Below are positions 15,484 through 53,834 of a stretch of DNA of 64,000 nt, in pieces (position 1 is the stretch's first letter; each line of letters starts with the position of its first letter). Under the pieces are notes generated by a model that saw only the letters and a list, made by a program, of their open reading frames with translations, did no database searches and had not been told where the DNA came from. The DNA is from Fibrobacter sp. UWB10 (GTDB lineage Bacteria; Fibrobacterota; Fibrobacteria; Fibrobacterales; Fibrobacteraceae): the NCBI RefSeq assembly GCF_900182935.1, contig NZ_FXUE01000005.1:1-64000 (forward strand). The letters are read 5' to 3'. The translations under genes were made by a program, and so were the position numbers.

Positions 15484-15513
15484 GAATAGCTTCCAATGTT
15501 CCTTTTTTAAAAA

Positions 15514-27616: not shown

Positions 27617-28789
27617 TCACGGGAGCTTCAGCAAATAGCCATTGTTTGCGCCAGTCGCCAAGAAGAATCCATCTGGCGAACGGCCACCAATCATCGGGAC
27701 CGAGGCAATTTCTTTAGCATTGTCCACCCATTCAAACGCAAGGTCTGCAGGAGCATTGGCTGCCAACTTGATTTCGCGCATCATCGTGCGGCCAGCGCTA
27801 CCGTTTTGCACCGAGGCATCAGACAGATCGTTCTTGTTCACATACTGCGACCCCTGCGGGAATTCTGTCCACACCACAAAAAGACGGTCAGCAAAAGTAA
27901 ACCAGTGCGGCTGAACCGGTTCAGAAATCATGTCAGACTTCTTTTCGATTTCAAACGGAGTAGCATTCTTCGAAAGTTCCTGAATAAAGGAGCGCCAACC
28001 CGTCATCGCTGCGTTAATCACGTTATAGACCACATACTTGCCATCCGGCGAAATCATGGGGCTATCCATCATCCAGCCATCAACGCCTGAAGGTTTCTTG
28101 AGCGTAAAGGACTTTTTGGTGCCACCATTGGCGTAGTCTACAAATACAATTTGGTCTTTCTTGTTCACGTAAACAAGGCGAACATCTTTGGTACCAAAGA
28201 ATCCTTCCACCTTGGAATCATCGGCCGAAGAATCGCGCACGGCATCGGGATTCACCCACAAGTGCGGAGTCGCGAATTCGCTCATGTCCTTATCATAGAA
28301 GAAGAACTGCTTTTTGTCAGACATGCGAACCGCAAACAGACCGTAGTCCAAATTTTCGCAAGACTTGCTACCCTTGGTATCGTAGGCACGGAGCGCCACA
28401 ATGAAATTCGGGTGCGTACTCCATTCCGGGTCTTGGAACTGGCAATCGCCCGCTTCGGTATCGCGCATCAAGTACCAAAGAACCTTACCCGAAGTATCGG
28501 ACACCGAAAGACGGTCATGCTGCACCACCTTCGAAGTCGTGTACACGGAATCGGGGGCTTCTACATTCAGCTTGCCGCCAAAGTTCAGCCAAAGCATTGC
28601 AGCCGGATAATTTTCAGGATCCTGAGAAACGGAAGGGTTGCAAATTTGCTTACCATCGTTCACAGCAAAAATCGAGCCCGTTTCCGATGTTTTATTGGAA
28701 GTTTCTGAGCCCGCAAACTGTTCCGGCTCGTAAACGCAAGCCGAAAGAGCAAATAATAAAGACAATGAGGCGAATTTTAAATAACGCAT
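27617..28789 (-). CDS. TolB-like beta-propeller lipoprotein (390 aa)
   Basis: Lipobox LSAC at about residue 17 after a short signal. The mature protein contains propeller-type repeats, clearest at 'MISPDGKYVVYNVINA' (about residue 250) and 'WVDNAKEIASVPMIGGRSPDGFFLATG' near the end (residues 355-380), as in WD40/TolB-like domains. It probably binds a periplasmic or surface partner. A TATATT box lies seven bases before the ATG but overlaps the end of the MATE gene, so expression may be from either. Confidence 0.6.
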   Translation of the reverse strand: MRYLKFASLSLLFALSACVYEPEQFAGSETSNKTSETGSIFAVNDGKQICNPSVSQDPENYPAAMLWLNFGGKLNVEAPDSVYTTSKVVQHDRLSVSDTSGKVLWYLMRDTEAGDCQFQDPEWSTHPNFIVALRAYDTKGSKSCENLDYGLFAVRMSDKKQFFFYDKDMSEFATPHLWVNPDAVRDSSADDSKVEGFFGTKDVRLVYVNKKDQIVFVDYANGGTKKSFTLKKPSGVDGWMMDSPMISPDGKYVVYNVINAAMTGWRSFIQELSKNATPFEIEKKSDMISEPVQPHWFTFADRLFVVWTEFPQGSQYVNKNDLSDASVQNGSAGRTMMREIKLAANAPADLAFEWVDNAKEIASVPMIGGRSPDGFFLATGANNGYLLKLP

Positions 28790-28802
28790 TGTCCGAAATA
28801 TA

Positions 28803-31478: not shown

Positions 31479-32048
31479 TTATTGCGCTTTCTTTTTCGCG
31501 GCGCGGCGCGCTTTAAGTTCTTCTACAATCGGCCGGATGATAGTCGCGAGGTTCATCGCGGTTCCGATTAGAATCATAAACGATGCCGCATGAATCCCAA
31601 CGCCAGGTTCCACCTTCAAGAGCGAGACTCCCATCGCTGAACTAATCTGCCCGAGTTTCGCTAGGAAAAACCACATTGATACCATCGTTAGCATTCCGAT
31701 TGTAATGGAGCCCAGCGGAGTAAAGAACGCAAACAAGCCCGCAATCACGGCGCCCACGAGAATCACGTAGAGAAACGGCACCGGCTCCATTTTCGGGAAA
31801 TGAGGCATGGTCTGCCGGAATTTTTCCATGGCAGGCGGATTGCCAGTTTCCATCTTTTTCAGAATTCCCAAGGCAGGTTCCTTCAGTTCCTGTTCCAAGT
31901 CGAGACCCGAAGCAAGTTCATAAAGGCTGGGTTCGGCAATCACTTCGTCGGCGCAGGAAACATTTGCCAGCGGCATCAACAATGCCAAAATAACCAGCAA
32001 ATACGGAATCGCCGTCAGCTTTTTAAATAGACGCATTTCTTTAAGCAT
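31479..32048 (-). CDS. Hypothetical four-helix membrane protein (189 aa)
   Basis: The start overlaps the previous stop (TAATG) with GAAGGAAAG upstream, so it is translationally coupled to the FGE-domain gene. Hydrophobic segments at about 10-30, 95-115, 118-140 and 150-175, with a soluble loop of about 60 residues after the first and a very basic C-terminus (RRAAKKKAQ). No family recognised. The coupling suggests it works with the preceding protein at the inner membrane. Confidence 0.65.
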   Translation of the reverse strand: MLKEMRLFKKLTAIPYLLVILALLMPLANVSCADEVIAEPSLYELASGLDLEQELKEPALGILKKMETGNPPAMEKFRQTMPHFPKMEPVPFLYVILVGAVIAGLFAFFTPLGSITIGMLTMVSMWFFLAKLGQISSAMGVSLLKVEPGVGIHAASFMILIGTAMNLATIIRPIVEELKARRAAKKKAQ

Positions 32049-34405
32049 TACTTTCCTTCAAACAGATTCCTGGGGAATGCACAGCGGAAGCCGATGGCAT
32101 CAGACCAATAACGCGGATCTTCATCGTCGCGTTCCGTCAAATTCAAATCGTCTTCTTTGTCCTTCCAAGAGCCCCCCTTATAAACCTTGGAAGAACCAAT
32201 CATAGCCCCCGTCGGGTTAGAAGATTCCACCCAGACCGAGAACATGAAATACTTGTCACGAGTCCATTCGGCGACATTGCCCGACATATCGAAAATGCCC
32301 CAAGCATTGGACTTTTTGCTACTTACCGGCTGCGGGCCATATCCCGGATTCTTTTTGCCCAGGCTATAAGAGTTGGCCTTGTAAATAGCGTACACAGCTG
32401 GATTCGGGTCTTCGTCGAGATTCCAGAGAGCGCCTTCGTTATTGTCGGCGCGGCCAGCAAATTCCCACTGAGCTTCGGTCGGCAGGTCTCCACCTAATTC
32501 CTTGCAGAAAGCCTGAGCGTCGTGCCAGGTAATGTTATGCACCGGGTGGCGAGCGCCCGTAAAGGTCGAGCGGTCCTCTATACGTTCCTTCGCATCTTTC
32601 TTGTCCATCACATCTTTGAAGAACTGCTGAGTCACTTCGGTCGTGTGGATTGCATACGGAGAAAGCGAGACAATCTTGCCCTTGTAGCGGAACGAGCCAG
32701 AATCAATCAAGGCCACCGTACCGCGGTCCCTGTCGCGCACAACGCGCGGAACCTTCATGGAAACATCGAGCAAAACGCCACTATTGTCTTCCTGTTTGAT
32801 TTTTGCCCTCGGTTCTTGCACCTTATGGGCAGGTTCATCAATCGGGCGGTTCAGCCATTCCTGGACTTCGGGGTCATCGTAAATGTACGCCGGAAGTTCA
32901 AAGGAACCATAACTCTTGACAGGCTTGTCCTTCACAAACAATTCAAACTTTTGATAGCGGTAATGGTGGCGACCTTTCAAGTCCCCTTCATGGTAAATCC
33001 ACACCGGCTTGTTTCTTTCGATAGAGAAGAAGGCGCGAGAAGGAGAATTCTTGAGCAGGGCCAAGAGCGAATCGGCCGTATAACCTTCGACATTACCCAC
33101 CCAGGAAACATCGTAGCGGTCTCCCTGTCGGCCATAATTAATGCGGACAGCCTTCATTTTGCAGACGCGCTTTGTCTTCGGTGCAGGCGGTTCCGCCGGA
33201 GCAACCACAGAATCCTTGGCGCTAGAATCCTTTACCGCCTTCTTTTGGGCAGCAGCCTTGGCAATGGAATCCTGTTTCAGCGCGGCCAGGGTCGCGGCAG
33301 AATCAATCACGTCTTCGCAAGCGTTTTCGTCGTAAACAGGGTCAATCGCAGTCGGAACCAAAGATACACGATGCGGGATTTTCTCCAGGCTATCAATTTT
33401 ATGGCGAAGGGCAACGTTTACGACACTCGCTGAGCCCATTCTATTCATGCGCCAATAGAGTTTGGCTTCGTCACGTTTGCCTTCGTAGCGCTTTCGGTAC
33501 TGGATATAGACACTATCGTCTGCGGCCACCCCGAGATACAGAGGCTTATGGAGTTTCGGATAAATCTTGTCAAATTCATTCGTGTCGACTTTTTCGACCG
33601 AGGCCTGAACTTCGCGAGAAAGAATATCGAACAGGTGTTCGGTTTCTTCGAGAGTCTTGGCAACGGAAACGGCATGCAAAGTAACAGAAGTGGTAGCCCT
33701 GACCTTGGACGCAGTGTCTACAACCGGCATTTGCGGTTTAAGCTCTACCAAAGAGCCTCCCGGAACAGAAACTGCATCGACATACGGCAGGTGATTCGGA
33801 GCCGAGAACGAGAATGCGTACATGCCCGCTTCAACCGGGTAAACAAGCGGAGCCACTTCCTTCATCGGGACTGACAGCGAAGTCGCTTCCCAGCCCTTGG
33901 CCGGAGACTTGATAGCAATGATTCCCGGGCGAGCAGTTTCCTGAATAGTTTGCCATTGGCCGTTTCTTCTAAAATAAAGTTTCGGAACGCGCGGAGAATA
34001 AAGGTAATTCTTGTCAAAATAAATGTCCGCTTCGTCCTGGAACGCTCTAGAAGTCTGAGAACCATAGAAACGCAGAAGCATAACTTCGGCCGGCTTCAGA
34101 TAATTATCAGCCAAGCTGAAGGCATGGAGTTTTTCAAAATTAGTGGGATTTACCGGACCAGAGAACCACAGATATTCCTTGGGGCCCTTTTTATGGCGCA
34201 AGAACATAATGTTCGTGCGGAGGGGAACCATCGGGGATTCCGACAAAATCAGGTTTTCGTTCTTAACAATTGCCATATTGGCAATTGGCTCCATCAAAGC
34301 ACCTTCCTTGAACATTGTCGGGGCAACTCTGAAATTCTTGTCGCTATCGGCCAACGTCATAATCGGCAACAGCAACAAAAGCGGAAGCAAACGAGTAAAG
34401 GACAT
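32048..34405 (-). CDS. Exported protein with C-terminal FGE-sulfatase (SUMF1-like) domain
   Basis: 785 aa with a signal peptide (MSFTRLLPLLLLLPIMTLA). Residues about 25-540 are not recognised and include an Ala/Lys-rich stretch near 380-410. The C-terminal ~210 residues match the formylglycine-generating-enzyme fold: 'HTTEVTQQFFKDVM', 'HPVHNITWHDAQAFCKELGG', 'LPTEAQWEFAGRA', 'WGIFDMSGNVAEWTRD', 'GGSWKD' and 'IGFRCAF'. In many secreted proteins this fold is a structural or binding module; GldJ/GldK of Bacteroidota gliding/type IX machinery also carry it. Catalytic activity is not implied. AGGAG precedes the ATG. Confidence 0.78.
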   Translation of the reverse strand: MSFTRLLPLLLLLPIMTLADSDKNFRVAPTMFKEGALMEPIANMAIVKNENLILSESPMVPLRTNIMFLRHKKGPKEYLWFSGPVNPTNFEKLHAFSLADNYLKPAEVMLLRFYGSQTSRAFQDEADIYFDKNYLYSPRVPKLYFRRNGQWQTIQETARPGIIAIKSPAKGWEATSLSVPMKEVAPLVYPVEAGMYAFSFSAPNHLPYVDAVSVPGGSLVELKPQMPVVDTASKVRATTSVTLHAVSVAKTLEETEHLFDILSREVQASVEKVDTNEFDKIYPKLHKPLYLGVAADDSVYIQYRKRYEGKRDEAKLYWRMNRMGSASVVNVALRHKIDSLEKIPHRVSLVPTAIDPVYDENACEDVIDSAATLAALKQDSIAKAAAQKKAVKDSSAKDSVVAPAEPPAPKTKRVCKMKAVRINYGRQGDRYDVSWVGNVEGYTADSLLALLKNSPSRAFFSIERNKPVWIYHEGDLKGRHHYRYQKFELFVKDKPVKSYGSFELPAYIYDDPEVQEWLNRPIDEPAHKVQEPRAKIKQEDNSGVLLDVSMKVPRVVRDRDRGTVALIDSGSFRYKGKIVSLSPYAIHTTEVTQQFFKDVMDKKDAKERIEDRSTFTGARHPVHNITWHDAQAFCKELGGDLPTEAQWEFAGRADNNEGALWNLDEDPNPAVYAIYKANSYSLGKKNPGYGPQPVSSKKSNAWGIFDMSGNVAEWTRDKYFMFSVWVESSNPTGAMIGSSKVYKGGSWKDKEDDLNLTERDDEDPRYWSDAIGFRCAFPRNLFEGK

Positions 34406-34432: not shown

Positions 34433-34438
34433 AATATA
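34433..34438 (-). promoter_or_regulatory. -10 box of the FGE-domain gene
   Basis: TATATT (minus strand), 27 bases before ATG 34405; no good -35 box. Confidence 0.35.
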
Positions 34439-34474: not shown

Positions 34475-37400
34475 TTAGACTTCGTTCGTTCCCATATTAA
34501 GTAAATACCCGCCATTTTCACCACCAACAGGGCCAAGTTCCACCTTCCAATCCGCAAGGCGAATAATGTCCGGATGGTGTTCGATGACTATGACCGTGTC
34601 GCCGCGGGCAGAAAGTTTGCGCAACATGTTCCAGAGAATCTGAATATCCTTGAGGTGGAGTCCTGTAGTCGGCTCGTCGAGCAGGTAAACCATTTCCTGG
34701 GCGGGTTTGCGGGCAAGTTCCGCAGCCAATTTCAGGCGCTGGGATTCGCCGCCGCTGAGCGTCGTCACAGATTGTCCGAGTTTCACGTACGGGAGACCCA
34801 CATCGCGCAGGCATTCCAGCTTCGGCAAAATTTTCGGTTGATCCTTGAAGAACTCGCAGGCTTCGGCCACGCGCATGTCGAGCACGTCGGCGATATTCTT
34901 GCCCTTGAAAGTCACGGTGAGGGTTTCCTGATTGTAGCGCTTGCCGCCGCAAACATCGCAGACTTCCCACACATCCGAAAGGAAGTGCATTTCTACCGAG
35001 ATGGCGCCGCGGCCTTCGCAGGCCTCGCAGCGGCCGCGAGCCAAGTTGTAGCTGAAGCGGCCATAGTCGAAGCCTTTCAACTTGGCTTGCGGCAGTTTGG
35101 CGAATAGCTTGCGTATGTCGTCAAACACGCCAGTGAAACTCGCGGGCGTGCTGCGAGGAGTTCCCGAAATCGGGCTTTGGTCAACAAGCAAGACTTCACC
35201 GTTCTGCTTCTTGCGACCGCGGGCCTGGAATTTCTTTTTGAGGCGCGGGAAGATTTCGTCCATGACCATGGAACTCTTGCCCGAGCCAGACACACCGCAG
35301 ACCACGCTAATGGCGCCCTTCGGGAATTTTACAGACAAATTCTTAAGGTTATTGTGGTTCAACTTTTCGAATTCGTAGAATTCCGTAGAATCGGTAATGG
35401 GCTTTGCCGCAATCTCGTTTGCCATCGGGATGGTATGCGTCAGGTACTTGACCGTCTCGCTACGCGGGAATTGCTGCAAGGCATAAGGCTTGGAAAGCTG
35501 TTCCGGAGAACCTTCGGCAACGACTTCACCGCCGAACTCGCCCGCCGCCGGGCCCATATCGATAATATGGTCCGCCGCCTGCATCATCTTCATATCATGT
35601 TCCACCACGACAAGTGTATTGCCGAGATCGCGCAAACGGTAAAGCGTGTTAAGCAACATAGCGGTATCGCTTTCGTGCAAACCTACCGTAGGTTCATCAA
35701 GCACGTAGAGCACGCCTTCGAGGCCGCTACCAATCTGGCTAGCCAAGCGAATGCGCTGAGATTCACCGCCGGAGAGCGTGTCACCCGCGCGGTCGAGGCC
35801 AATATAGCCGAGCCCCACGCCCTTCAAGAAGTTGAGACGCCCGACAATTTCGCGGAGCAAGGGTTCCGCGACCGTCATCTTACCATCGGGATTCTTGTCT
35901 TTTCCGAAATTGTCGCGTTTGAAGTTTTCGTTGCTGAACCATTCGAGCGCCTGGGCGATACTCATGTGGTTCACATCCATAATGTTCTTGTCACCGATGC
36001 GAACCGCCAAATATTCCGGCTTCAAGCGTTCGCCGTGACAATCCGGGCAAACTTCGCCATCTTTAAAGTGGCCAAGGCCAAGGCAGGTTTCGCAGGCACC
36101 CCAGTGCGTGTTGAAACTGAAGTGTTTCGGGTTCAGCGCCGAATCCATGTACCAGCCGCAATCGGGGCAGCCCGGTTTTTCGGAGCAAGCGAGGCGTCCA
36201 CCCTTCTCGTCTTCTACATACAGGATTCCGTTGCCGTCGCGGTAGCCGCGTTCAAATGCTTCCACCAAGCGGGCACGATTGTCTTCTTTCACCACAACCG
36301 TATCGACGACAGCGAACAACTGCTTTTCGCGGGTCGGGATTTTCGGCAGCGGGAGTTCCACCAGTTTATCGCCGAGGTAAACCTTGCGGTAACCCTTCTC
36401 AGTGAGAATTTTCGAAAGTTTCAGCACGTCCTTGATTTCGAACGGGGCAAGGACGGTCACCTTCTTGTTCAAGTCGCGATCGAAGGCGTATTGCATCAGG
36501 TCGCCCGCGCTGTACGAAGACACGGGCTTCCCGCATTTCAAGCAATGCGGGGTGCCGACCCTCGCCCAGAAAATGCGGAAGTAGTCATAGATTTCGGTGA
36601 GGGTCGCCACCGTAGAGCGCGGGCTCTTGCTCGCACTCTTCTGGTCGATAGCAATTGCCGGCGCGAGGCCCGAAATAGAATCGATGCTTCCGTGATCAGG
36701 GCGTCCGAGGAATCGGCGAGCATACGTACTCAACGTTTCCACAAAGCGACGCTGGCCTTCGCTAAAGAGCGTATGGAAAGCGAGGCTCGACTTACCGGAG
36801 CCCGAAACGCCTGTCACCACCGTGAGCTTGTGCCGCGGAATCGTGACGTCAATGTTCTTGAGGTTATGCTTGCGGGCGCCATGTACCTCGATATCCAGCG
36901 ACAAGTCTTCGCCGCCCTTGAGCGTACGATCAAAATGATGATTTTCACCATGCTTTTTCGCAAGCACCGGCGCAAGGTACTTACCCGTCTCGGACTTTTT
37001 GCATTTCGCAATCTGCTCCGGCGTTCCCGTCGCAATGATTTTACCACCGTGAACACCCGCATCTGGGCCCAAATCGATAATCCAGTCGGCGCATTTAATC
37101 ACGTCCAGATTGTGTTCGATAATCACGACGCTATTGCCGAGACCGCGCAGGCGATTCAAGCAATCCATGAGCTTGCGGATATCTTCAAAATGCAAGCCCG
37201 TCGTCGGTTCGTCGAGCAGGTAGAGCGTCTTGCCGGTACCCGGGCGACGGAGTTCCGACGCAATCTTGATACGCTGCGCTTCACCGCCACTGAGCGTTGT
37301 CGAAGGCTGGCCCAAAGTCAAGTAGCCAAGGCCCACTTCCACCAGCAAGTTCAGCGGTTCTGCAATCTTCGAAATATCCTTGAAGAATTCCGCCGCATCC

Positions 37401-39769
37401 GCAATGCTCATATCCAAAATTTCAGAAACGTTCTTGCCCTTGTAATAAACTTCGCGAGTAGCATCGTTAAAGCGCTTGCCGCCGCACACCTCGCAAGTCA
37501 CCTGCACACTCGGCAAAATATGCATATCCACGATTTTCACGCCCGCGCCTTCGCAGGCATCACAGCGGCCGCCCTTCACGTTAAAGCTGAAACGGCTCTT
37601 GCTGTAACCGCGAATCTTGCTTTCTTCCATGCTGGCGAAAAGGTCGCGCACATCGTCCCAAATCTTGGTATACGTCGCCGGATTGCTTCGCGGTGTGCGG
37701 CCAATCGGCGTCTGGTCGATTTCAATCACCTTGTCGATATTTTCGAGACCTTCGAGGTGATCGAACTTGCCGACCGGTTCTTCGGAATTGAAGAACACGC
37801 GGGCCAATTCGCGGCGCAGAATCTGATTAATCAGCGTACTCTTACCGGAGCCCGAAACGCCCGTCACCACCGTCAGCGCACCGTCCAGCGGGATTTCCAC
37901 ATCAATATTCTTCAGGTTGTTTTCGGCGGCACCGCAAATCTTGAGCTTCGGCGTATTCTTGTCAATCTTCTTGCGGGTCGCAGGAATTTCAATTGCCTTA
38001 CGGCCGCTCAAATAAGCGCCCGTCAGCGAAGCCTTATTCTTTTCCAGCTCTTCGACAGTTCCCGCCGCAATCACGCGACCGCCTTCCACGCCGGCACCCG
38101 GCCCCACGTCAATCACGCAGTCCGCATGGCGCATGGTGTCTTCGTCGTGTTCCACGATAATCAGGGAGTTACCCTGCGCCCTCAAATGCTCCAACATCCC
38201 GAGCAGTTTATCGTTATCGCGGGGGTGGAGCCCGATGCTCGGCTCGTCAAGCACGTAAAGCACACCCTGCAAGCCGGCGCCCACAGCGCTTGCAAGCCTG
38301 ATTCGTTGCGCTTCACCACCCGAAAGCGTGGACGCCTTGCGGTTGATGGTCAAGTACCCCAGCCCCACCGCATTCAAGAACGAAAGTCGCCCGCGAATTT
38401 CCTTCAGAATTTCCTTGCCGATTCGCTTTTCCTTTTCGGACAAGTCAATCTTATTGAAGAAATCCACCGACTTCTCGACGGACCATTCCGTCATCTCGGT
38501 CAGATTCACACCATGGAACGTGACCGCATTCGCCGTGCGGTTGATTCGCGTACCGTGACATTCAGGGCAAACGCCAATCTGCATGTACTTGCGGAAATGG
38601 TAAATGTGCCACATGTCCCACAGTTCCTGCATAATCGGGATGATGCCGCGCTCTGATTCACTCGGCGTGCCGTATAAGACGGCATCCTGCTGCGCCTTCT
38701 TAAGCTTATTCCACGGCGTATCCAGCGAAAAGTGCATTTCGTTGGCGATATTACGCAAGTTGCGACGACCGAAATCGCTAAAAATCAGATTGCCATCGTC
38801 CTTCTTGATGGTGGCAATACAGCCGTCCTTAATAGACTTCGTCTTGTCCGGGATAATCAAGTCCAAATCAAACTTGTAACTCTCCCCCATGCCTTTACAA
38901 GCGGGGCAGCGGCCCTTGGGGTCGTTAAAGCTAAAGAATCGCGGTTCCAGTTCTGGAATAGAAATTCCGCACTTGGGGCAAGCGAGCAATGTGCCCTGCA
39001 GGCGATATTCTTCCTTTGCATCTCCGGCGCCATCCTTGCCCGAACCGCCCGCGGCCAGCAAGAAACTCACCAACTTTCCGTCGGTCAGTTTCAAAGCGCC
39101 TTCCAGCGCTTCGCGCAAACGGCTCATGTTCTTGCGCTCCAGCGTCAAGCGGTCAATCACCGCTTCAATGGTATGCTTCTCGTAACGCACCAGCGCGGGG
39201 ACATCTTCCAAACGGTAAATCGTGCCGTCCACGCGGGCACGCACAAAGCCATTTTCCTTGAGTTCAGCCAATTCCTTGCGGTATTCGCCCTTGCGCTCCT
39301 GCACAATCGGCGCCATCACCGTAATCTGCTTGCCCTCGTCACTCACATACAAATTATCGACAATCTGATCTACTGTCTGCGCTTGGATGACGCGCCCGCA
39401 ATCAGGGCAATGCGGCACACCTAGGCGCGCAAAAAGCAGACGATAATGGTCCAAGATTTCCACCACCGTACCCACCGTAGAACGCGGGTTACGGTTCACC
39501 GTCTTCTGGTCAATCGAAATCGTCGGCGAAATGCCGCGCACGCTTTCTACCTCAGGGTGCTTCATGCGGCCTATGAACTGGCGCGCGTACGCCGAAAGCG
39601 ATTCCACAAAGCGACGCTGACCTTCCTGGAACACCGTATCAAACGCAAGGCTCGACTTGCCCGAACCCGACACACCGGTCACCACCACAATAGAATCGCG
39701 GGGAATAGAAAGGTTCACATGGCGTAAGTTATGCTCGTGGGCGTCGCGGATTTCGATGGATTTTGTCAT
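34475..39769 (-). CDS. uvrA: Double-length excinuclease ABC subunit A (tandem UvrA fusion)
   Basis: 1764 aa against the usual ~940. UvrA scans DNA for bulky lesions and loads UvrB. Residues 1 to ~950 are a complete UvrA; ~955-1764 are a second, shorter UvrA. Each copy has two ABC cassettes: Walker A GVSGSGKS occurs four times (near 31, 640, 980 and 1490), and four signatures LSGGE(A/S)QR are each followed by a 'LDEP' Walker B. Each copy also has zinc-finger Cys clusters (for example CDACEGAG with CEVCGGKRF in copy 1, CEACEGRG with CDVCGGKRY in copy 2). Nothing looks inactivated. Copy 2 diverges clearly from copy 1, so the fusion is old. Confidence 0.95.
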
Positions 39770-39776
39770 GCTCCCG

Positions 39777-39782
39777 AATATA
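39777..39782 (-). promoter_or_regulatory. -10 box seven bases before uvrA
   Basis: TATATT (minus strand) sits directly behind the T-run of the terminator at 39783-39804 and seven bases before ATG 39769. The bases between (GGGAGC) contain an RBS-like run, but a transcript starting seven bases after the box would begin at the ATG. Confidence 0.45.
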
Positions 39783-39804
39783 GAAAAAGACGGCCAAGCC
39801 GTCT
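39783..39804 (-). terminator. Intrinsic terminator between the 39866 gene and uvrA
   Basis: GACGGC / GCCGTC stem (39789-39794, 39798-39803) with a 3-nt loop and a T5 run on the minus strand. The T-run leads straight into the uvrA -10 box. Confidence 0.8.
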
Positions 39805-39865
39805 AATTCTTAGTGCACTAATGTGCAGATTTTCAAAAAAAAACTCTGTCGAACTAAATCGTTCT

Positions 39866-41236
39866 TTAATCCTTTACACAGCGAACCGAACATGCTACCA
39901 CTTTTTCGTTCTTTTTCAAAGACGCCTTCTGGTAGTCCGAATAAAGCATATATGCAAAGCCGGGCGAGATATCGTAAGAAGTCCAAAGGCATGCAAAGTG
40001 ACCCGTTTTTTCCATATTGTATCCTGCGGGAAGAAGCGAAAATCCGTACACATCATGGAATGAATTATCGATATTTCCATATTCTTCAACCCAGGAATCA
40101 GCATAAGCCTTCAAGTTACTGTTTTTAGAAGTTGATTCCTTGACTGCATAAAGCAATGTCTTGTATTCGGCAAGTCCAGGCAAATGCCAACCTTCAGGAC
40201 AAATCCCACGAACATTCTTCGGGCGGTCGCAATATTTTTGGAAGCCACAACCAATCGAGGCGTCGGAATAATAGCCTAGACTATCCATAACCACAGCCCA
40301 GTTATACGCAGTTCCGTACTTGGCACAAGAATCCTGGCTGTTGTCGATGCAACCAGATATGTACGGATACTCCAGTTTCAAGTTTTCCGCCATCCATGTT
40401 TGATTTCCAATCACGACAGTCTTGTATTCATTGCCATCGCGACTATCTTTGAATGTTCCGTATTCACAGTTGTCCTCGTCTTTCGTCCTGCATGGTTCCT
40501 GCGCTACGACATCCGCCGAATCGGGCAAGGGCTCATAAAAGTCATCATCCTTCACACACCTTACGACCATATAGCAGTCCGCACTATTATCTTTCCATTC
40601 CACCGGTTTTTCCGCTTCCAGGTTGAAGGAATACAGGCTACCGTACTGAGCGTACTCAGCCGACATAAATACAGCCCTAGTATTGACCGATCTAATGCAC
40701 TTCATTCCCGAAGGAACCGCAGCAAATCCATAGATGTCCGTCTCGCCCTGCCTATCGTACCAAGCGTCTGTTGACCGCAACAGTTTACCCGCGGAATCTG
40801 GACCACCAACAGCCATCACCAGTTTGCTAAAATCCATAAATCTCGGGAGATGCCAGCCTGCAGGGCACGAGACTTTCGCATCTTGGTCCCAATAGTAACG
40901 CCCTAGAGTAGGATCGGCTATATCTGGAGTATAATCATAGGAATAGTTTTTGGCAGGATCCGTGTAGTTCAAATTCTGCGCCATCCAGGTCTGTTCGCCA
41001 ATGACAACATACCGATAAGGCTGTCCATCGCGTTCGTCAATAAAAATTTGCTCACTACTCGAACTATAATGTTCCTGGGAACTGCTGGATATTTCTACCG
41101 AGCTGCTCGATTCCTCAATGGAACTGCTAGATTCCTGTTCTAAATATTCAGCCGACGAAGAATCGTCACTGGAACATGCAGCCAGTGCAACAAAAGCGAT
41201 TGTCGTCAATCTCAAAAAAAATGTAGATTTATTCAT
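39866..41236 (-). CDS. Fibrobacter major-domain lipoprotein (two domains)
   Basis: 456 aa from ATG 41236 (AAGGA upstream). Lipobox ALAAC near residue 21, Ser/Glu-rich linker (about 23-60), then two major paralogous domains at about 65-235 and 255-456. Marks in the first: 'DERDGQPYRYVVIG', 'TWMAQNLNY', 'CPAGWHLPRFMDF', 'VVRCVKD'; in the second: 'DSRDGNEYKTVVIG', 'TWMAENLKL', 'CPEGWHLPGLAEY', 'VRCVKD' at the end. Presumed surface lipoprotein of unknown role. A TATATT box lies at 41266-41271. Confidence 0.88.
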   Translation of the reverse strand: MNKSTFFLRLTTIAFVALAACSSDDSSSAEYLEQESSSSIEESSSSVEISSSSQEHYSSSSEQIFIDERDGQPYRYVVIGEQTWMAQNLNYTDPAKNYSYDYTPDIADPTLGRYYWDQDAKVSCPAGWHLPRFMDFSKLVMAVGGPDSAGKLLRSTDAWYDRQGETDIYGFAAVPSGMKCIRSVNTRAVFMSAEYAQYGSLYSFNLEAEKPVEWKDNSADCYMVVRCVKDDDFYEPLPDSADVVAQEPCRTKDEDNCEYGTFKDSRDGNEYKTVVIGNQTWMAENLKLEYPYISGCIDNSQDSCAKYGTAYNWAVVMDSLGYYSDASIGCGFQKYCDRPKNVRGICPEGWHLPGLAEYKTLLYAVKESTSKNSNLKAYADSWVEEYGNIDNSFHDVYGFSLLPAGYNMEKTGHFACLWTSYDISPGFAYMLYSDYQKASLKKNEKVVACSVRCVKD

Positions 41237-41277
41237 TTCGATAGTCCTTGTTCTACTCTCTTCCAAATATATATTAA

Positions 41278-41299
41278 AAGGTGGCCGCAAAGCCACCTT
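41278..41299 (-). terminator. Intrinsic terminator of corA
   Basis: AAGGTGGC / GCCACCTT, an 8-bp stem with a 6-nt loop, followed by TTAATAT on the minus strand. Only 7 bp from the -10 box of the next gene. Confidence 0.75.
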
Positions 41300-41320
41300 A
41301 ATTTGTCCAAAAGATGTTTT

Positions 41321-42256
41321 TTACTTACGGCGCATCCAGAAGGCCATAAAGACAAGCACCGAGAGAATACACACTGCAATAATCAGCCAGAAGGCCATGG
41401 GCGAACCGACAGTTGCGTCGCCATTCATGCCAAAGGGCAGCTTCACGTTCATGCCAAACAAGCTTGCGAAGAACGTCGGGAGAGAAATAGAAATCGTCAC
41501 GATGGTCAAGTTCTTCATCAGCGTGTTCACGTTGTTGCTGATGACGCTTGCGCGGGCATCCATCATGGACGTCAAAATGTTGGCGTAGATTTCAGCTTGC
41601 TGCAGACTCTGGCGGTTTTCAATCACGATATCGTCCAGCAGTTCCCGTTCGCTTTCAGACCAGTTCAAGCTGCGGCCAATCTGCAACTTTTTCAGGAGCG
41701 TGTCGTTGCTGTTCAAGGCGCTCACGTAGTAAATCAAGCCCTTGTTCAAGCTGAACATCGAAAGCAGGTACTTGTTTTCCATGGCCGTACGCAGCTTCTG
41801 TTCCAACTCGTCGTTAATGCGGTTGATAATCTTCAAGTGTTCGTTAAAGTGGAAAATAGCGTAGCTCAACACGCGAAGCACAAAAGTGTTCAAGCTGTCA
41901 ATTTTGGAGAAGCGCTTTTCGTCCATCACCGGAATATCGGAGTCGGTCAGCAAAAGCACCCAGTCCTTAAAAATGAAGATACCGAAAGATTCCACGCGGA
42001 ACTGGAAGTTATCACTTGCGGAATAGTTCTTCGGCTTCTTAAACACGATGGTCGTAAAGTCGTCGTCGTATTCGATACGGGAAAGTTCGTCCGAGTCGAA
42101 TGCAGAGGCTATCGTATGTTCCGTGATTTCGTACTCTTTAACGAGCACGCTACGTTGCTCTTGGCTCAAGGAACCCATCATCACGATGTCGGCGCTGTCT
42201 TCGTTCGGGGCACTAGCGAGGCGACCCGATTCGATCTTGTAGTACTTCTTGAGCAT
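41321..42256 (-). CDS. corA: CorA-family magnesium/divalent cation channel
   Basis: 311 aa. A large soluble N-terminal alpha/beta and coiled-helix domain (1-250) is followed by two membrane helices at the C-terminus. The first ends in the signature GMN ('SLFGMNVKLPFGMNGD', about residues 268-283); the second is 'MAFWLIIAVCILSVLVF'. CorA pentamers carry Mg2+ across the inner membrane. Curiously GMN occurs twice within 12 residues; the first copy is in the canonical place. The gene has its own -10 box (42286-42291) and terminators on both sides. Confidence 0.92.
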   Translation of the reverse strand: MLKKYYKIESGRLASAPNEDSADIVMMGSLSQEQRSVLVKEYEITEHTIASAFDSDELSRIEYDDDFTTIVFKKPKNYSASDNFQFRVESFGIFIFKDWVLLLTDSDIPVMDEKRFSKIDSLNTFVLRVLSYAIFHFNEHLKIINRINDELEQKLRTAMENKYLLSMFSLNKGLIYYVSALNSNDTLLKKLQIGRSLNWSESERELLDDIVIENRQSLQQAEIYANILTSMMDARASVISNNVNTLMKNLTIVTISISLPTFFASLFGMNVKLPFGMNGDATVGSPMAFWLIIAVCILSVLVFMAFWMRRK

Positions 42257-42285
42257 AGGAGCCCCCTTTATCGAACGGGCTCTAA

Positions 42286-42321
42286 TATAGAAAAAACCTC
42301 GGCAAAACCGAGGTTTTTTAA
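42286..42321 (-). terminator. secDF terminator fused to the corA -10 box
   Basis: CCTCGG (42299-42304) and CCGAGG (42310-42315) form a stem extended by A6/T6. The minus-strand T6 run is followed directly by TATATT (42291-42286), the presumed corA -10 box, 29 bases before its ATG. Confidence 0.8.
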
Positions 42322-42346
42322 AGCTTTTTTTGGGTTTAGTGCTAAA

Positions 42347-44992
42347 TTACACACCCTTCTTGAAGCGCTTGCTCCACCACAGAACGATCGGAGAGCAGAT
42401 GCACACAGAAGAGTAGGTACCGATAAGGATACCGAAGCACTGGACCAAGCCGAAGTCGCGGATGGAAGAACCACCCATCACAGCAAGGATCACGCACACG
42501 AACAAGGTCGTGAGAGAGGTCACCATGGTACGGCTGAAGCACTGGTTCATAGACTTGTTGATGGTTTCGGCGAAGTTGCTGGAACCATACACAGCAGTGT
42601 TTTCACGAATACGGTCGAAGTTCACGATAGTGTCGTTCACAGAGTAACCGATCATGGTGAGGAGCGAAGCAATCAAGGCGCCATCGAAGGAAAGACCGAA
42701 GGCAGAGATGAAGCCGAGCGTAATCACGGTATCGTGCACCAGGCCGAGCACGGCAGCGACACCGAAGCCGAGACCGAACTTACCGAAGCGGAACCACACG
42801 TAAATCAGAATGCCGAGCCATGCGAGAATCACAGAAAGGATTGCGTTGAAGCGGAGTTCCTTACCGATGGTCGGACCCACATTGTCCTTAGCGACGATTT
42901 CGCACTTCTGGCCGGCCTTTTCGAAGGCCTGAGCCATCTTGGCTTCGAACTGGGCGTCGTCAGAGGCGCGCATGCTAATCTGGTAAGAGTTAGCAGAAGT
43001 ACCACCGAGCGTACGGACCTTCGTGCCAGAGATGCCAGCAGCAGAGAGAGCCTTGCTCAAATCCTTTTCATGCTTGTCGCTATCCTGGTACTGCACGGTA
43101 TAAACCTGACCACCAGTAAAGTCGATGCTGAAGTCAAAGCCCTTAACAGCGATGAAGGCGATAGAAGCAACAATGAGGATCAAGGAAATGAGGCCGAAAC
43201 GACGGCGGTTCGGAATGATCTGGAGGTTGGCTTCGTTGATAGCCTTGAAGCCGCCACCGATCGAAAGGGTCGTAGCGTCGCGCTTAGCAAGCTTCCAATC
43301 CAAGATGGAGCGGGTCACCGTGATAGCGCAGAACAAGGAGGTCAAAATACCGATCGTAAGAGTAAGACCGAAACCCTTCACAGAACCCGTACCAATCTTA
43401 TAAAGGATAAGGCCGGTAAGCACGGTGGTCAAGTTGGAGTCCAAGATGGCACCGAAAGCGCGTTCGTAACCCTTGGCCACGGCGGCGCGGGCGGTCAGGC
43501 CGTTCTTGAGTTCTTCACGGATACGTTCGTAAATAATCACGTTGGCGTCGAGAGACATACCGACCACGAGGATAAAGCCTGCGATACCCGGCAAGGTCAA
43601 CGTAGCGTTAAACACAGACATCACGGCGGCGGTCACCAAAGTGTTGATCACCATACCGAAGCTTGCAATCAAACCACCGAGGCGGTAATAAGCAACCATG
43701 AACACCAAGCAGAGGATAAGGCCGATAGCACCGGAACCGAAGCCCTGCACAATGTTTTCTTCACCGAGGGTTGCACCCACGCTGCGGCTTTCAATAATCT
43801 TCATCGGGGCCTTCAAGGCACCAGCGCGGAGCACAACAGAAAGGCGGTTAGCTTCGGCCATGTCGTCGAGACCCGTAATCTGGGCTTCGCCGTTCGGGAT
43901 ACGGTCGCGGATCACCGGAGCAGAAATCACCTGGTTGTCGAGCACGATAGCCATCTGCTTGCCAATGTTAGCGGCAGTCACAGCAGAGAACTTTTTCGGA
44001 CCAATGCCACCGAACTTGAGGCTCACAGCCACTTCACCGGCACTCACACCGTCAGACACGCGGTACGGACGGGCGTCAACCACATCGTCACCAGCCATTT
44101 CAGCACGGCGCTTGAGGAGGTAAAGACGCTTGGCCTTAATCTTGGAATCACGCTGCACCGGTTCGAGACCGCTGCCGAAAGCGAAAGCAACATCGCGCGG
44201 AATCAGCTTCTGCACACCGTCGGTAGCGAGGAGCTTCTTGACCTTTTCGACATTTTCTTCGGCGATAAAGCCACCGTTACCAAAACTCAGGTAGTAAGCG
44301 GAAAGGGCAACGCCGACCTCAGATGCCGGTTGAGCCTCGACTGCGGCAGAATCCTTGGCGGAATCGTTAGCAGCAACTTCAGCGGCAGGAGCCTTACCGA
44401 GCAATTCGTCATCGGAAAGGGCCTTAGTCGTATCCTTGGCGGAATCAACCTTAGCGACCGTAGAATCCTTGGCGGTAGAATCCGTAGCAGCGGAGTCAGC
44501 CACGATGTCGGTCGTCTGGCGGGTCAGGTACTGGTCGATGAGGCCAACAACCTGGGTAAACTTTTCAGCTTCGGCCAGGATCTTGAATTCGAGCTTAGCG
44601 GTCGAACCCACGAGAGCCTTTGCAGTGGAGTCATCCACGCCTGCCAGTTCAACCACGATTCGGTCGTCGCCGGACGGGGAAATCTGCGGTTCAGAAAGAC
44701 CGTACTGGTCAACGCGGTTACGGATGATTTCGAGGGACTGTTCCTGAATGTCCTTGATATCGTCGCCCTTGACGTTCGACTTGTCAATTTCGAGCGTAAT
44801 GGCCGTACCGCCAGCAAGGTCCAAACCGAAGTTGATGGATTTTGCACCCACCTTCGGATTTTCCTTGAGGAAGGTCTGCTTTTCTTCGCCCTTCTTGGTG
44901 TGAACCTGGATAGAAGGCCATACCGTGTAGGCCGACAAAACAATGACGAGGAGAATAATCAGTTCTCGCATGCCGAATTTTTTCTTATTCAT
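42347..44992 (-). CDS. secDF: Protein-export membrane protein SecDF (fused)
   Basis: 881 aa, SecD and SecF in one chain. SecDF uses the proton gradient to pull exported proteins through SecYEG. SecD marks: N-terminal helix, 'NFGLDLAGGTAITLEI' (about 54-69), 'LEIIRNRVDQYGLSEP', and the channel motif 'SLDANVIIYERIREEL' near 480. SecF marks: 'FDFSIDFTGGQVYTVQY' (about 615-632) and 'YSVNDTIVNFDRIREN' near 785. About twelve membrane helices in total. Odd: a low-complexity Asp/Ser/Ala/Lys stretch (about 165-235) inserted in the SecD periplasmic P1 domain. No yajC neighbour. Confidence 0.96.
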   Translation of the reverse strand: MNKKKFGMRELIILLVIVLSAYTVWPSIQVHTKKGEEKQTFLKENPKVGAKSINFGLDLAGGTAITLEIDKSNVKGDDIKDIQEQSLEIIRNRVDQYGLSEPQISPSGDDRIVVELAGVDDSTAKALVGSTAKLEFKILAEAEKFTQVVGLIDQYLTRQTTDIVADSAATDSTAKDSTVAKVDSAKDTTKALSDDELLGKAPAAEVAANDSAKDSAAVEAQPASEVGVALSAYYLSFGNGGFIAEENVEKVKKLLATDGVQKLIPRDVAFAFGSGLEPVQRDSKIKAKRLYLLKRRAEMAGDDVVDARPYRVSDGVSAGEVAVSLKFGGIGPKKFSAVTAANIGKQMAIVLDNQVISAPVIRDRIPNGEAQITGLDDMAEANRLSVVLRAGALKAPMKIIESRSVGATLGEENIVQGFGSGAIGLILCLVFMVAYYRLGGLIASFGMVINTLVTAAVMSVFNATLTLPGIAGFILVVGMSLDANVIIYERIREELKNGLTARAAVAKGYERAFGAILDSNLTTVLTGLILYKIGTGSVKGFGLTLTIGILTSLFCAITVTRSILDWKLAKRDATTLSIGGGFKAINEANLQIIPNRRRFGLISLILIVASIAFIAVKGFDFSIDFTGGQVYTVQYQDSDKHEKDLSKALSAAGISGTKVRTLGGTSANSYQISMRASDDAQFEAKMAQAFEKAGQKCEIVAKDNVGPTIGKELRFNAILSVILAWLGILIYVWFRFGKFGLGFGVAAVLGLVHDTVITLGFISAFGLSFDGALIASLLTMIGYSVNDTIVNFDRIRENTAVYGSSNFAETINKSMNQCFSRTMVTSLTTLFVCVILAVMGGSSIRDFGLVQCFGILIGTYSSVCICSPIVLWWSKRFKKGV

Positions 44993-45058
44993 TTGTAATC
45001 CCTATAAGGCATTATTCAGTAAGTTTTGCGCGCAAATGTAGAAAAAGTTGTGCCATCA

Positions 45059-46585: not shown

Positions 46586-48559
46586 CTAAATCTTCCACAT
46601 CGGGCGGCGCTTGCGCACATCCACGAGCATGCGAATTTCAGAGGCAAGCGACGAGTAGTCCATCAACTCTTCTACAGAACACGGCATGCGGTAGCACCAG
46701 TTAGAGCCACCCACCGTACCCGGCACATTCACGCGTTCTTCTTCGGGCGCGCACTTGGTCAAGCTAGCCGAAAGAGCGAAGTAGTCTTGCACCGGCAAAA
46801 TGCAGAACAAGCTGTTCGCCGTATACACATGGCTCAAAATCAAACGTGCCACAGAAGGCGTCACCTCTTCAGGTGCATTGCCCGGCAGGTGTGCATGCGA
46901 CCAGTACAGGTTGCGGTCAAAGTCAGGTTCCTTCCAGAGTCCACGCAGGCTAGAGGTATCGTGGCAACTCGTGGCGCATACAGACAGGCGCGGGTATTCG
47001 TCCATTTCATAGTACGGCGAATACGGAGCATTCCAATTGCGGGCCCAGCGTTCAATGCGCAGCGACAGGATGTTGAGCTTTTTGAGCACGGCAGGCACGC
47101 AAGGCGGCACGGCACCCAAGTCTTCGGCGCAGACCAGCATATCGGTTTCCTGCGAAAGCACGGTCAAGAGCTTGGTGGCATTGGCATCCCACAAGCCATT
47201 CTGGGAATTTTCGTTTTCCTTGATCAGGTTACGCAGCTTTTCCTGTTCGTAATCCGGCAAGGTAAAGAGCACCGGAGCATTGTACCAGTACCAATACGGG
47301 TAGAAATTGTTTTCGTCGCCCGAGGGCACAAACACGCGGTTCCAGTAAACCTTGAGCAGCTTGTCCTTGACTTCTTGCGGTTCGTTCAAGCCAAGGATAC
47401 CCTTTTCGGAACTGAATTCCGGCTTCAAGATAAAGCGACCCGGATGACCTTCGAGTTCGGTAAAGCAAACCGGAACCAAGCGGTCGGTATCGCCACCCAA
47501 GAAATCGCGCAACTGGTCGTAGCCGTAATTCGGACGGCGCAGGTATTCAAGCGTTTCGCGCATAAAGCCCGCAGCAGCGAGCTTGTCATACGTGAGCGGC
47601 ACGCACGGGTTAAAGTAACCCAGAATGCCCGTCACTTCTTGCTGCGGAATCGACCAAATGCGGAAGAATCCAAGCACGTGGTCAATGCGGTAAGCATGGT
47701 AGAACTTGCTTGCCTGAGCCAAGCGACGGCGCCACCATACAAAGTTGTCCTTTTCAATCACGTCCCAACGGTAAGTCGGGAATCCCCAGTTCTGGCCGGT
47801 GTAGCTGAACATGTCAGGAGGAGCGCCAGCGCGGTCATCCAGCGAGAAGTACTTGCGGTCGGCCCACACGTCGGCGCTGTCTTCGTTAATCAGAATAGGA
47901 ATGTCACCCTTCAGGCGGATTCCCATCTTGGAAACTTCGGCAACTGCGGCGCTGAACTGTTTTTCAGCTTCGAACTGCATCCAAGCCTGGAACAGGTTGT
48001 CCTTCAGGAACTTTTTCCAGAGGGCATCAATATCCTTCGCTGTCGGGTCGCGGTAATTTTTCCAGTCCTTCCAGCTTCTTTCGTCGTTCTGAGCCTTGAG
48101 GGTGCAGTACACGCAATACGGCTTTGCCCAAGTATTGTCGTCTATCCAGCGCTGCAACACCTTATCTTTTTTCAGGTCGTCATAACGGTTGTCAAAAATC
48201 TTGCGCAGAATCAGGCGCTTCCAAGTCGAAATATTGTAGTAGTCGATCTTGCCGTACTTTTCAAAATCGGCCTTGCCCGCCTGGATTTCATCTTCGTATT
48301 CCGAAGAACCTTCCACCGACTGCACGTTAATGAACACCGGATTCAAGGCAAAAGCACTGCGGGCGCTATAGGGGCTCGATTCGGCGCCCGTATCGTTCAC
48401 CGGCAAAAGCTGAATAATATTGAAATCACAAAAAGCGGTCCAACGGGCAAACGGAATCAGGTCCAAAAATTCGCCGATACCAATGCTCTGCTTGCTATAA
48501 AGGCTAAAGAGGGGAACGGCCACGCCGCTCTGGAAAAATGAAATGTCACCGTAACGCAT
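46586..48559 (-). CDS. malQ: 4-alpha-glucanotransferase (amylomaltase)
   Basis: 657 aa, GH77. It transfers alpha-1,4-glucan segments between maltodextrins in the cytoplasm. Visible: 'QLLPVNDTGAESSPYSARSAFALNPVFI' (about 54-80), 'LKGDIPILINEDSADVWAD' near 215, 'YRIDHVLGFFRIW' with the nucleophile Asp near 295, 'CAEDLGAVPPCVP' near 476 and 'SCHDTSSLRGLW' near 535. Length is longer than bacterial 500-aa forms and close to plant/E. coli-type enzymes. With the GH13 gene it forms an alpha-glucan-turnover pair, consistent with glycogen storage in Fibrobacter. Confidence 0.93.
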   Translation of the reverse strand: MRYGDISFFQSGVAVPLFSLYSKQSIGIGEFLDLIPFARWTAFCDFNIIQLLPVNDTGAESSPYSARSAFALNPVFINVQSVEGSSEYEDEIQAGKADFEKYGKIDYYNISTWKRLILRKIFDNRYDDLKKDKVLQRWIDDNTWAKPYCVYCTLKAQNDERSWKDWKNYRDPTAKDIDALWKKFLKDNLFQAWMQFEAEKQFSAAVAEVSKMGIRLKGDIPILINEDSADVWADRKYFSLDDRAGAPPDMFSYTGQNWGFPTYRWDVIEKDNFVWWRRRLAQASKFYHAYRIDHVLGFFRIWSIPQQEVTGILGYFNPCVPLTYDKLAAAGFMRETLEYLRRPNYGYDQLRDFLGGDTDRLVPVCFTELEGHPGRFILKPEFSSEKGILGLNEPQEVKDKLLKVYWNRVFVPSGDENNFYPYWYWYNAPVLFTLPDYEQEKLRNLIKENENSQNGLWDANATKLLTVLSQETDMLVCAEDLGAVPPCVPAVLKKLNILSLRIERWARNWNAPYSPYYEMDEYPRLSVCATSCHDTSSLRGLWKEPDFDRNLYWSHAHLPGNAPEEVTPSVARLILSHVYTANSLFCILPVQDYFALSASLTKCAPEEERVNVPGTVGGSNWCYRMPCSVEELMDYSSLASEIRMLVDVRKRRPMWKI

Positions 48560-48613
48560 GGTGTAAATTTAGTTTTTCGACAAAAATCTTAAATGGGCAA
48601 CGAAAGAAATTGC

Positions 48614-50305: not shown

Positions 50306-50309
50306 GAGA

Positions 50310-50381
50310 GGCAACGATCAGACTCGAACTGATGAATAAGGCTTTTGCAGAGCCGCCCCTTACCAACTTGGGTACGTCGCC
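50310..50381 (-). tRNA. tRNA-Cys (anticodon GCA)
   Basis: 72 nt, full cloverleaf by hand. Acceptor GGCGACG/CGTTGCC (one G-U), 3-bp D-stem, anticodon arm GGCT-CTGCAAA-AGCC with anticodon GCA and a C-U mismatch at 27-43, variable loop of 5, T-arm ATCAG-TTCGAGT-CTGAT. The discriminator base is U, the identity element expected for tRNA-Cys. The CCA end is not encoded. Confidence 0.95.
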
Positions 50382-50393
50382 AAAGTGAAACGC

Positions 50394-50422
50394 AATATAG
50401 GTAATTTTATTCCCTTTTTCAA
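50394..50422 (-). promoter_or_regulatory. Promoter of tRNA-Cys
   Basis: Minus strand: TTGAAA (50422-50417), 17-bp spacer, TATATT (50399-50394), 12 bases before the mature tRNA 5' end. Confidence 0.7.
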
Positions 50423-53003: not shown

Positions 53004-53834
53004 CTACGCTCCGAACTGAATACCCAGGAAAAAGGAGTTCGACCACCCGTCAATATCGTTGTTGAAGGTCTTGATTGCCCCTATTTCAAAAGAAATCCAG
53101 GTCGAACGAAGCGTACGCTTGGCCCACGGCCATACTTCGCGAAGGTTAAAGGCCACCCCCGGCACGACATTCAACAAGACCGCCTTCGAAAAGTTGTATT
53201 CCACATGGGCACCAGCAGTCAGCGACAAATACCGGGTCAAGTTATAGCCACCGCCAACACCGAGCCCAATCGAAAAGCCGTCCAATGTGAAAAGCCTCTG
53301 GCAATCATCGCTTTCGTCTATACCCAGAGAATCAGCAATCTCTTCGCCGTCGGATTCATCCCACCAATAACGTTCGTCTTTGTCCTTACTGGTTTTCTCG
53401 CCCTTGACCTGCTTTCTGAAAGCAGAAATACTCGTGTTTTCGAGTCCCATGAACGGTTCTACATAAAGGTCGAATTTATCGGAAGGCTTATGGAACCTCA
53501 AGTTCACGCGGTAACGTTGGTACATGACCATGGCGTCGCGGTCCAAGTCACCCCCGAAAAAGCGGACATCGGCACCGGCACTCACCCAATCGGAATAAAA
53601 ATATTCGATTTGCACCTGCCAAGCGCCCATGCAGTCGCATTCGTCCAGCGGGTCGTAAACACCAAAACCCATACCGAACGAAAGCCCCTGTTCCATGTAG
53701 GCAGTCTGCCCTGGCAAAGGGACCGTGGTAATTTCGGACAACTTATTCTCTGATTCAAGCGAATCTACGTCGTCTGCCGCAAACGAGGCAGACAACCCAA
53801 ATACAAGAACAATCAGCAAGAATAAGTAACGCAC
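53004..53834 (-). CDS. Outer-membrane beta-barrel protein (276 aa)
   Basis: Start GTG 53834. Signal peptide MRYLFLLIVLVFGLSASFA, then an acidic stretch and alternating strands rich in Tyr/Gly: 'VQIEYFYSDWVSAGADVRFFG', 'GIGLGVGGGYNLTRYLSLTAGAHVEYNF'-type segments (about residues 165-205) and a 'SNSFFLGIQFGA' end. Probably a small outer-membrane barrel of about eight to ten strands. A TAATAT box lies five to seven bases before the GTG, with no RBS. Function unknown. Confidence 0.65.
   Translation of the reverse strand: MRYLFLLIVLVFGLSASFAADDVDSLESENKLSEITTVPLPGQTAYMEQGLSFGMGFGVYDPLDECDCMGAWQVQIEYFYSDWVSAGADVRFFGGDLDRDAMVMYQRYRVNLRFHKPSDKFDLYVEPFMGLENTSISAFRKQVKGEKTSKDKDERYWWDESDGEEIADSLGIDESDDCQRLFTLDGFSIGLGVGGGYNLTRYLSLTAGAHVEYNFSKAVLLNVVPGVAFNLREVWPWAKRTLRSTWISFEIGAIKTFNNDIDGWSNSFFLGIQFGA

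Follow-up and report, generated by a model that had tools for sequence, protein, structure and literature searches.

A TATATT −10 box six to seven bases before start codons very probably gives leaderless mRNAs in Fibrobacter and through its class

Leaderless genes are a known kind of gene. In the TA-led type, surveyed in Deinococcus-Thermus, Actinobacteria and other groups, the first T of a TANNNT box lies some 12 nt ahead of the start codon, a Shine-Dalgarno (SD) sequence is lacking, and SD-led genes occur in the same genomes, as set out in the sections of PMC3160421 used here; the Fibrobacter genes described below are alike in each of these respects. They differ in that the core of the box is TATATT, with TATAAT nearly absent, and in that the box often adjoins a terminator-like U-tract. 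The share of such genes differs as well, at an estimated 8% or so of all genes in UWB10 against an average of 39.4% in Deinococcus-Thermus (Table 2 of the same source). Fibrobacteres are not among the groups named in those sections and could fall under 'Other Bacteria', and by term counts "Fibrobacter" is absent from the main text of PMC3160421, PMC5397173 and PMC9581028. Fibrobacter degrades plant fibre in herbivore guts; among the titles listed in open-access literature searches there was no report of leaderless genes or mapped starts in Fibrobacter, and these searches found no promoter map. To the known kind, the Fibrobacter case adds a distinct box, two modes of leader length and a terminator-promoter arrangement.

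Primary-sigma promoters of Bacteroidetes combine a −7 TAnnTTTG with a −33 TTTG, and TATATTTG, which is common at Fibrobacter uvrA, fits TAnnTTTG. In place of a −33 TTTG, however, Fibrobacter tRNA genes have an ordinary TTGACA-17-TATAWT arrangement, and SD sequences are in use in Fibrobacter, which is a further difference. In the sections of PMC7366714 used here, the commonest leader of B. thetaiotaomicron is 23 nt long, which resembles the leadered mode of Fibrobacter, whereas leaders shorter than 10 nt make up only about 3.7%, unlike in Fibrobacter. Genomes with non-SD, A/T-rich ribosome-binding sites are also unlike Fibrobacter, in which AAGGAG-type motifs are enriched and the anti-SD CCTCC is intact. 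Parts of earlier surveys describe SD sequences in Fibrobacteres as less obvious yet detectable (PMC3155529) and place Fibrobacteria among the classes with the anti-SD CCUCCUUU (PMC10783764).

The window analysed here is a stretch of 64,000 nucleotides from the genome of Fibrobacter sp. UWB10 (10 contigs, 3.48 Mb). The original prediction held that a −10 box ends four to seven bases before the start codon at uvrA, a STAS-domain gene, a beta-barrel gene and possibly the genes starting at 28789 and 55235. With the gap defined as the count of bases separating box from start codon, the short distance proved real, the actual range being six to seven bases. The box was found at the first three genes and at 28789, but TATATT is absent from the upstream sequence read at gene 55235, which has only a weak TATTTT variant at gap 7. 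The features concerned are as follows.

34475 to 39769, minus strand: uvrA, long form, 1764 aa.
39767 to 39769, minus strand: ATG start codon of uvrA and putative transcription start.
39777 to 39782, minus strand: −10 box TATATT of uvrA, followed by 7 nt and then the ATG at 39769 (read directly from the sequence).
39783 to 39804, minus strand: terminator-like hairpin AGACGGC-TTG-GCCGTCT (39788 to 39804) with U-tract TTTTC (39783 to 39787), abutting the −10 box.
39814 to 39827, no strand assigned: palindrome TGCACTAATGTGCA, candidate LexA box, lying in the stretch that separates the hairpin from the upstream gene.
21060 to 21065, minus strand: −10 box TATATT of the STAS-domain gene 20388-21053, 6 nt before the ATG at 21053.
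53841 to 53846, minus strand: −10 box TAATAT of the beta-barrel gene 53004-53834, 6 nt before the GTG at 53834.
53852 to 53873: hairpin with U-tract and one mismatch, just upstream of the TAATAT of the barrel gene (identified by eye).
28797 to 28802, minus strand: TATATT 7 nt before the ATG of gene 27617-28789, adjoining the stop codon of the upstream gene.
55222 to 55227, plus strand: weak −10-like TATTTT, 7 nt before the ATG of 55235-56821 (Fib_succ_major domain protein).
48566 to 48571, minus strand: −10-like TAAATT, 6 nt before the ATG of 46586-48559 (4-alpha-glucanotransferase).
42284 to 42289, minus strand: leadered contrast, TATATT 27 nt before the ATG of the CorA gene (start 42256).
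34433 to 34438, minus strand: leadered contrast, TATATT 27 nt before the ATG of gene 32048-34405, with the SD AGGAG between.
50394 to 50399, minus strand: box of a tRNA promoter (TTGAAA-17 nt-TATATT); 12 nt separate it from the tRNA, 50309-50381.

On the coding strand, uvrA is preceded in order by AGACGGC, TTG, GCCGTCT, TTTTC, TATATT and CGGGAGC, and then begins with ATG. The box sits between uvrA and its upstream neighbour, a gene for a Fib_succ_major protein (39866-41296), of which the hairpin at 39783-39804 is probably the terminator. The beta-barrel gene matches Pfam OMP_b-brl at 27 bits, slightly under the cut-off of 28.7; its GTG at 53834 is the start given in the original prediction, and the start called by our hexamer gene finder lies 13 codons inside. 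At the CorA gene an SD-like AAAGGGGG lies between TATATT and ATG, and a terminator-like hairpin abuts the box.

The reading that we regard as very likely is that TATATT is the core of the housekeeping −10 box of Fibrobacter, which at a gap of 6-7 would give leaderless mRNAs, class-wide and beside a leadered mode. The −10 element would consist of this core, a T-rich stretch before it that often has C or T as its last base, and usually a T after it. At a gap of 6-7, RNA polymerase would start at or within 1-2 bases of the A of the ATG, and the leaderless mRNA would be translated by a start-codon/initiator-tRNA route, without SD pairing. In other genes this promoter would sit some 20 nt more distal, accompanied by an SD sequence, so that two modes exist with little in between; in some tandem pairs the U-tract of the upstream terminator would run into the −10 box. 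The sequence statistics below establish the position of the box, its enrichment, its promoter character, the two modes and the presence through the class.

Enrichment was measured in 1.19 Mb (about a third of the genome), in which a home-made hexamer gene finder, blind to upstream signals, called 870 genes, some of them with wrong starts; the 850 with a readable upstream region were used. First genes (n = 539) were divergent, or tandem with a spacing of at least 60 nt, operon-internal genes numbered 232, and the contrast excludes 79 tandem genes whose spacing was 25-59 nt. TATATT lay at gap 6-7 in 38 of the 539 first genes, as against a mean of 0.8 and a maximum of 5 over 300 rounds of dinucleotide shuffling of the last 50 nt; the comparison with shuffled upstream regions that had been proposed as a check, run on this third of the genome, thus gave strong enrichment (38 vs 0.8). 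As in TA-led genes, a −10 box placed some 10-12 nt ahead of the start codon exceeds the shuffled background. Before operon-internal genes the same placement was found in 4 of 232 (shuffle mean 0.1; p = 0.0017 against first genes), marking the signal as mainly one of the first genes of transcription units, and before in-frame internal ATG codons (n = 7384) the two gaps gave 3 and 1 matches. The four operon-internal cases suggest internal leaderless promoters; one of them is TATATT 28797-28802, within the 13-nt spacer of two tandem genes, which is a possible promoter of this kind.

When all 6-mers were ranked by position before first genes, TATATT at gap 7 came first (21 vs 1.4 expected) and at gap 6 third (17 vs 1.45 expected), with the overlapping CTATAT second and pieces of the SD motif next (AAAGGA, AAAAGG, AGAGGA); before operon-internal genes, SD-like pieces were on top and TATATT was absent from the 25 6-mers listed. 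TATAAT was nearly absent at the leaderless gaps. The relaxed motif TAWNWT at gap 5-9 occurred in 102 of 539 first genes against 32.7 after shuffling, an excess of about 69 genes, or 13% of first genes and about 8% of all 850. Probably some 12-13% of first genes are leaderless, and the figure is probably a minimum because wrong start calls would blur the peak. Across the whole genome and independently of any gene finder, 200 occurrences of TATATT-N6/7-ATG were counted, as against 61 with N14/15 and 28 of the reversed motif with N6/7. Chance in A+T-rich intergenic DNA might seem to suffice, since TATATT is fairly common at any distance (mean 0.97 per position among the 539 genes at gaps 31-94), but the peak is absent in dinucleotide shuffles, at internal ATG codons, in operon-internal genes and at shifted gaps; these four counts refute chance as an explanation, and we consider it exceedingly improbable.

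The box also has the character of a promoter element. TATATT has a second peak at gap 24-33, where 29 genes carry it against a shuffled mean of 3.9; the intervening gaps 10-17 and 18-23 hold 5 and 11 genes. An SD motif accompanies the box in 18 of the 29 genes of the distal peak vs 2 of the 48 with the box at gap 6-9 (Fisher p = 3e-8). The lack of SD in the other 46 of these 48 genes, a trait of TA-led genes as well, is partly forced by lack of room and is weak evidence, because the box occupies the SD space. Both the 80 leaderless candidates and 52 boxes lying 18-45 nt upstream share a T-rich run leading up to the box and a T following it; C stands just before the box at a frequency of 0.50 in the former and 0.33 in the latter, and among the 80 candidates T follows the box in 0.56, with G next in only 0.23. 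At −1 a pyrimidine stands in 70 of the 80 candidates; it does so less often in SD genes (70 of 116, p = 2.6e-5) and in other first genes (269 of 459, p = 2.9e-7). Transcription usually starts at a pyrimidine/purine step, so this preference indirectly supports a +1 at the A of the start codon.

Genes for stable RNAs carry the same box. A −35-like hexamer was found at a spacer of 15-17 in 15 of 20 tRNA upstream regions, some of which were poorly aligned by script, and in 10 the spacer was 17; TTGACA was perfect in 7 of the 20, at spacer 17, and others have TTGAAA. In clear cases the mature tRNA follows 10-15 nt after a box that reads TATATT, TATAAT or close to one of these. These 20 come from 23 tRNAs, the tRNA on L114 at 6912 (tandem set) having been omitted along with two on L135 that have no clear box upstream. 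An Rfam scan of 54 sources of the own genome, in which stretches L088-L091, L100 and L101 were left outside, returned the 23 tRNAs, RNase P RNA, one cut-off 5S RNA and two sRNA-family matches barely above threshold, with no tmRNA or SRP RNA for calibration. RNase P RNA, located in 69 of 72 class genomes, is preceded in UWB10 by TTCTATATTTGGG, and position 1 of its Rfam model lies 4 nt after the box. In promoters of protein genes the −35 is weak: 5 of the 38 TATATT candidates score at spacer 17, and with all 80 candidates counted, other spacers do equally well, reaching 8. Taken together, the contexts point to a primary-sigma promoter to which the box belongs, common to leadered, tRNA and RNase P RNA genes. 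The 16S tail CCTCCTTT, with the anti-SD CCTCC, is intact, so that leaderless and leadered modes can coexist, and AAGGAG-type motifs are enriched before both first and operon-internal genes.

These contexts bear on a rival view, which makes the T/A-rich box a non-SD motif for ribosome or S1 binding within a longer leader, as in Bacteroidetes, and no promoter at all. The box does lie at the usual place of a ribosome-binding site, genes with the box lack SD, and for other phyla parts of PMC5397173 interpret a U-rich bias around −10 as possible S1 sites. Operon-internal genes, however, need ribosome binding equally and rarely have TATATT, the same TATATT is also seen at tRNA genes that have a −35, at RNase P RNA and, alongside an SD, 24-33 nt upstream of other genes, terminator-like hairpins end directly before the box, and the anti-SD is intact with SD in use. 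On the promoter contexts, the T-rich flank, the pyrimidine at −1 and the tRNA promoters, we rejected a ribosome-binding motif, which we hold to be very unlikely.

Conservation at uvrA supports a housekeeping −10 box tied to the start codon. Of 80 uvrA loci, 16 were unused (cut at the gene start, or from other phyla) and five distant ones (L059, L064, L065, L068, L072) were set aside, leaving 59 Fibrobacter-type loci; in the 18 loci at the top of the list, nearly all of them Fibrobacter, the best segment of the first 423 residues of UvrA shows 96-98% identity. The ATG stands at the aligned start and in register in 59 of 59, and DNA upstream of the box diverges widely among loci. Exact TATATT at gap 6-7 is present in 40 of 59 loci and any box at gap 4-10 in 45, in all 45 of which the base preceding ATG is a pyrimidine; G is at −5 in 31 of the 40, so TATATTTG prevails. 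It could still be that the box is a −10 element from which transcription starts a few bases off, giving very short leaders, or that start codons are wrong and translation begins further in. Such readings gain support because the distance of transcription start sites from a −10 box varies, at around 5-9 nt, and TATATT does lie at gaps 8-9 in 10 cases, but gap 6-7 dominates, and the invariant pyrimidine at −1 and the start codon kept in register at uvrA both argue against these readings; we think them quite unlikely.

A box at gap 4-10 is missing in 14 of the 59 loci. In four of these 14 (L032, L037, L039 and L044) TATATT lies 24-30 nt upstream, which looks like a switch of uvrA between leaderless and leadered modes among relatives; if so, close relatives offer natural pairs, with uvrA leaderless-looking in one species and leadered-looking in another. 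A hairpin ends at most 8 nt from the box in 15 of the 40 loci with exact TATATT at gap 6-7: 12 of these hairpins are of the AGACGGC/T type, one (L055) is a LexA-like palindrome and two are doubtful.

Prior work on the LexA protein of F. succinogenes is mentioned in the part of PMC3091678 used here. The motif TGnACN4GTnCA has a single match in the window and lies at most 70 nt from the uvrA start in 15 of the 59 loci, and a similar LexA-like half-site abuts the TATATT box in many relatives. The match in the window is TGCACTAATGTGCA at 39814-39827, which we take to be a likely LexA operator. SOS control of uvrA may thus act by covering the leaderless promoter. As to the protein itself, among the matches listed, open frames of about 1750-1820 aa are common in the family; other classes of the phylum commonly have frames of about 945-1000 aa, and some of them hold both sizes.

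The fused order of terminator and promoter seen at uvrA recurs elsewhere, including at the barrel gene (by eye) and the leadered CorA gene. A strong terminator-like hairpin was found in 99 of 367 tandem spacings (at least 30 nt) and in 85 of 132 convergent pairs; the distance from the stem to the start of TATATT is 1-10 nt in 18 of the 99 tandem and in 0 of the 85 convergent cases (p = 7e-6). Of the 30 tandem leaderless candidates, 11 have a stem whose end lies 13-27 nt upstream of the start codon; such a stem is present in 1 of 50 divergent candidates and in 13 of the 271 remaining tandem first genes. Because the hairpin test looks for T behind the stem, the T-rich flank of a promoter makes a positive result easier, and the divergent candidates control for that. 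In those 11 tandem candidates the distance from stem to box, judged by eye, is at most 11 nt in 10 and 15 nt in one. If the stem terminates transcription, this placement leaves little room for a leader, and the U-tract of the upstream terminator can be the T-rich part of the next promoter. Compact spacing accounts for part of the proximity of terminator and box. Terminator activity, the exact transcription start and leaderless translation are what we infer from these signals. No earlier description of the arrangement was found in a literature search that was not exhaustive.

Recycling of RNA polymerase after termination, the subject of PMC6978322 and PMC6978380, offers a parallel, in that a terminator with a nearby promoter could let retained polymerase start again. 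In Fibrobacteria, gene end and next start might often be fused in a cassette of about 40 nt with an operon-like hand-over by termination and leaderless restart. A terminated polymerase still on the DNA would restart on the box a few bases ahead, and neighbouring genes would be expressed in series without a common mRNA. The fused signals are observed; the hand-over is speculation, and we judge it unlikely. Restart by retained polymerase comes from single-molecule work on bacterial polymerase in which, in the part of PMC6978322 used here, the direction was usually reverse, and this slightly lowered our already low estimate; the Fibrobacter case differs further in being known from the arrangement of DNA signals.

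Leaderless-type spacing extends through the class. The comparison of TATATT-N6/7-ATG with TATATT-N14/15-ATG, made without gene calls, covered 136 whole genomes from the phylum, each with a completeness of 80% or more. The counts were 11990 vs 3430 in 68 genomes of the own genus (ratio 2.4-6.8), 3979 vs 1332 in 20 genomes of the rest of the family, 53 vs 4 in two genomes of the other family of the order, one at 67% G+C in its sample, and 398 vs 139 in 12 genomes of the rest of the class. For the class as a whole they sum to 16420 vs 4905, with a ratio of at least 1.76 in 102 of 102 genomes. Outside the class, 34 genomes gave 4450 vs 3238, with ratios of 0.99-2.4 that exceed 1.5 in 14 of the 34; the genus g18 (G007-G011, five genomes) reached 743 vs 349, or 2.1 overall, and G022 211 vs 120, a ratio of 1.758, close to the lowest in the class. 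Within the class the signal is at its strongest; outside, it is weaker but present, and the border is not sharp; separate or older use of leaderless genes is possible in g18 and G022.

Gene-level samples of 154-200 kb were taken from eight other genomes, and since their k-mer lists were noisy, boxes were recounted simply with a background. Class members with power gave 15 of 77 genes vs 2.8 (G122) and 9 of 103 vs 3.1 (G086), and weak, small class samples gave 5 of 88 vs 1.8 (G117), 2 of 80 vs 0.8 (G132), 1 of 55 vs 0.3 (G126) and 2 of 58 vs 0.2 (G034). Outside the class no gene-level peak appeared in the 200-kb sample of G022 (2 of 96 vs 3.6) or in G027 (1 of 85 vs 1.7). In reading the box as a sign of regular leaderless translation in this lineage, the original prediction was very probably right. 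The class would then join the lineages with regular leaderless translation, gene-start prediction in it should use the T-rich/TATATT signal, and expression tools for Fibrobacter should include leaderless promoters.

Separately, three long plus-strand frames in the window (12316-15489, 35177-38656 and 41303-44998; 1057, 1159 and 1231 aa) lie antisense to long genes, and these long antisense frames are probably by-products of codon usage.
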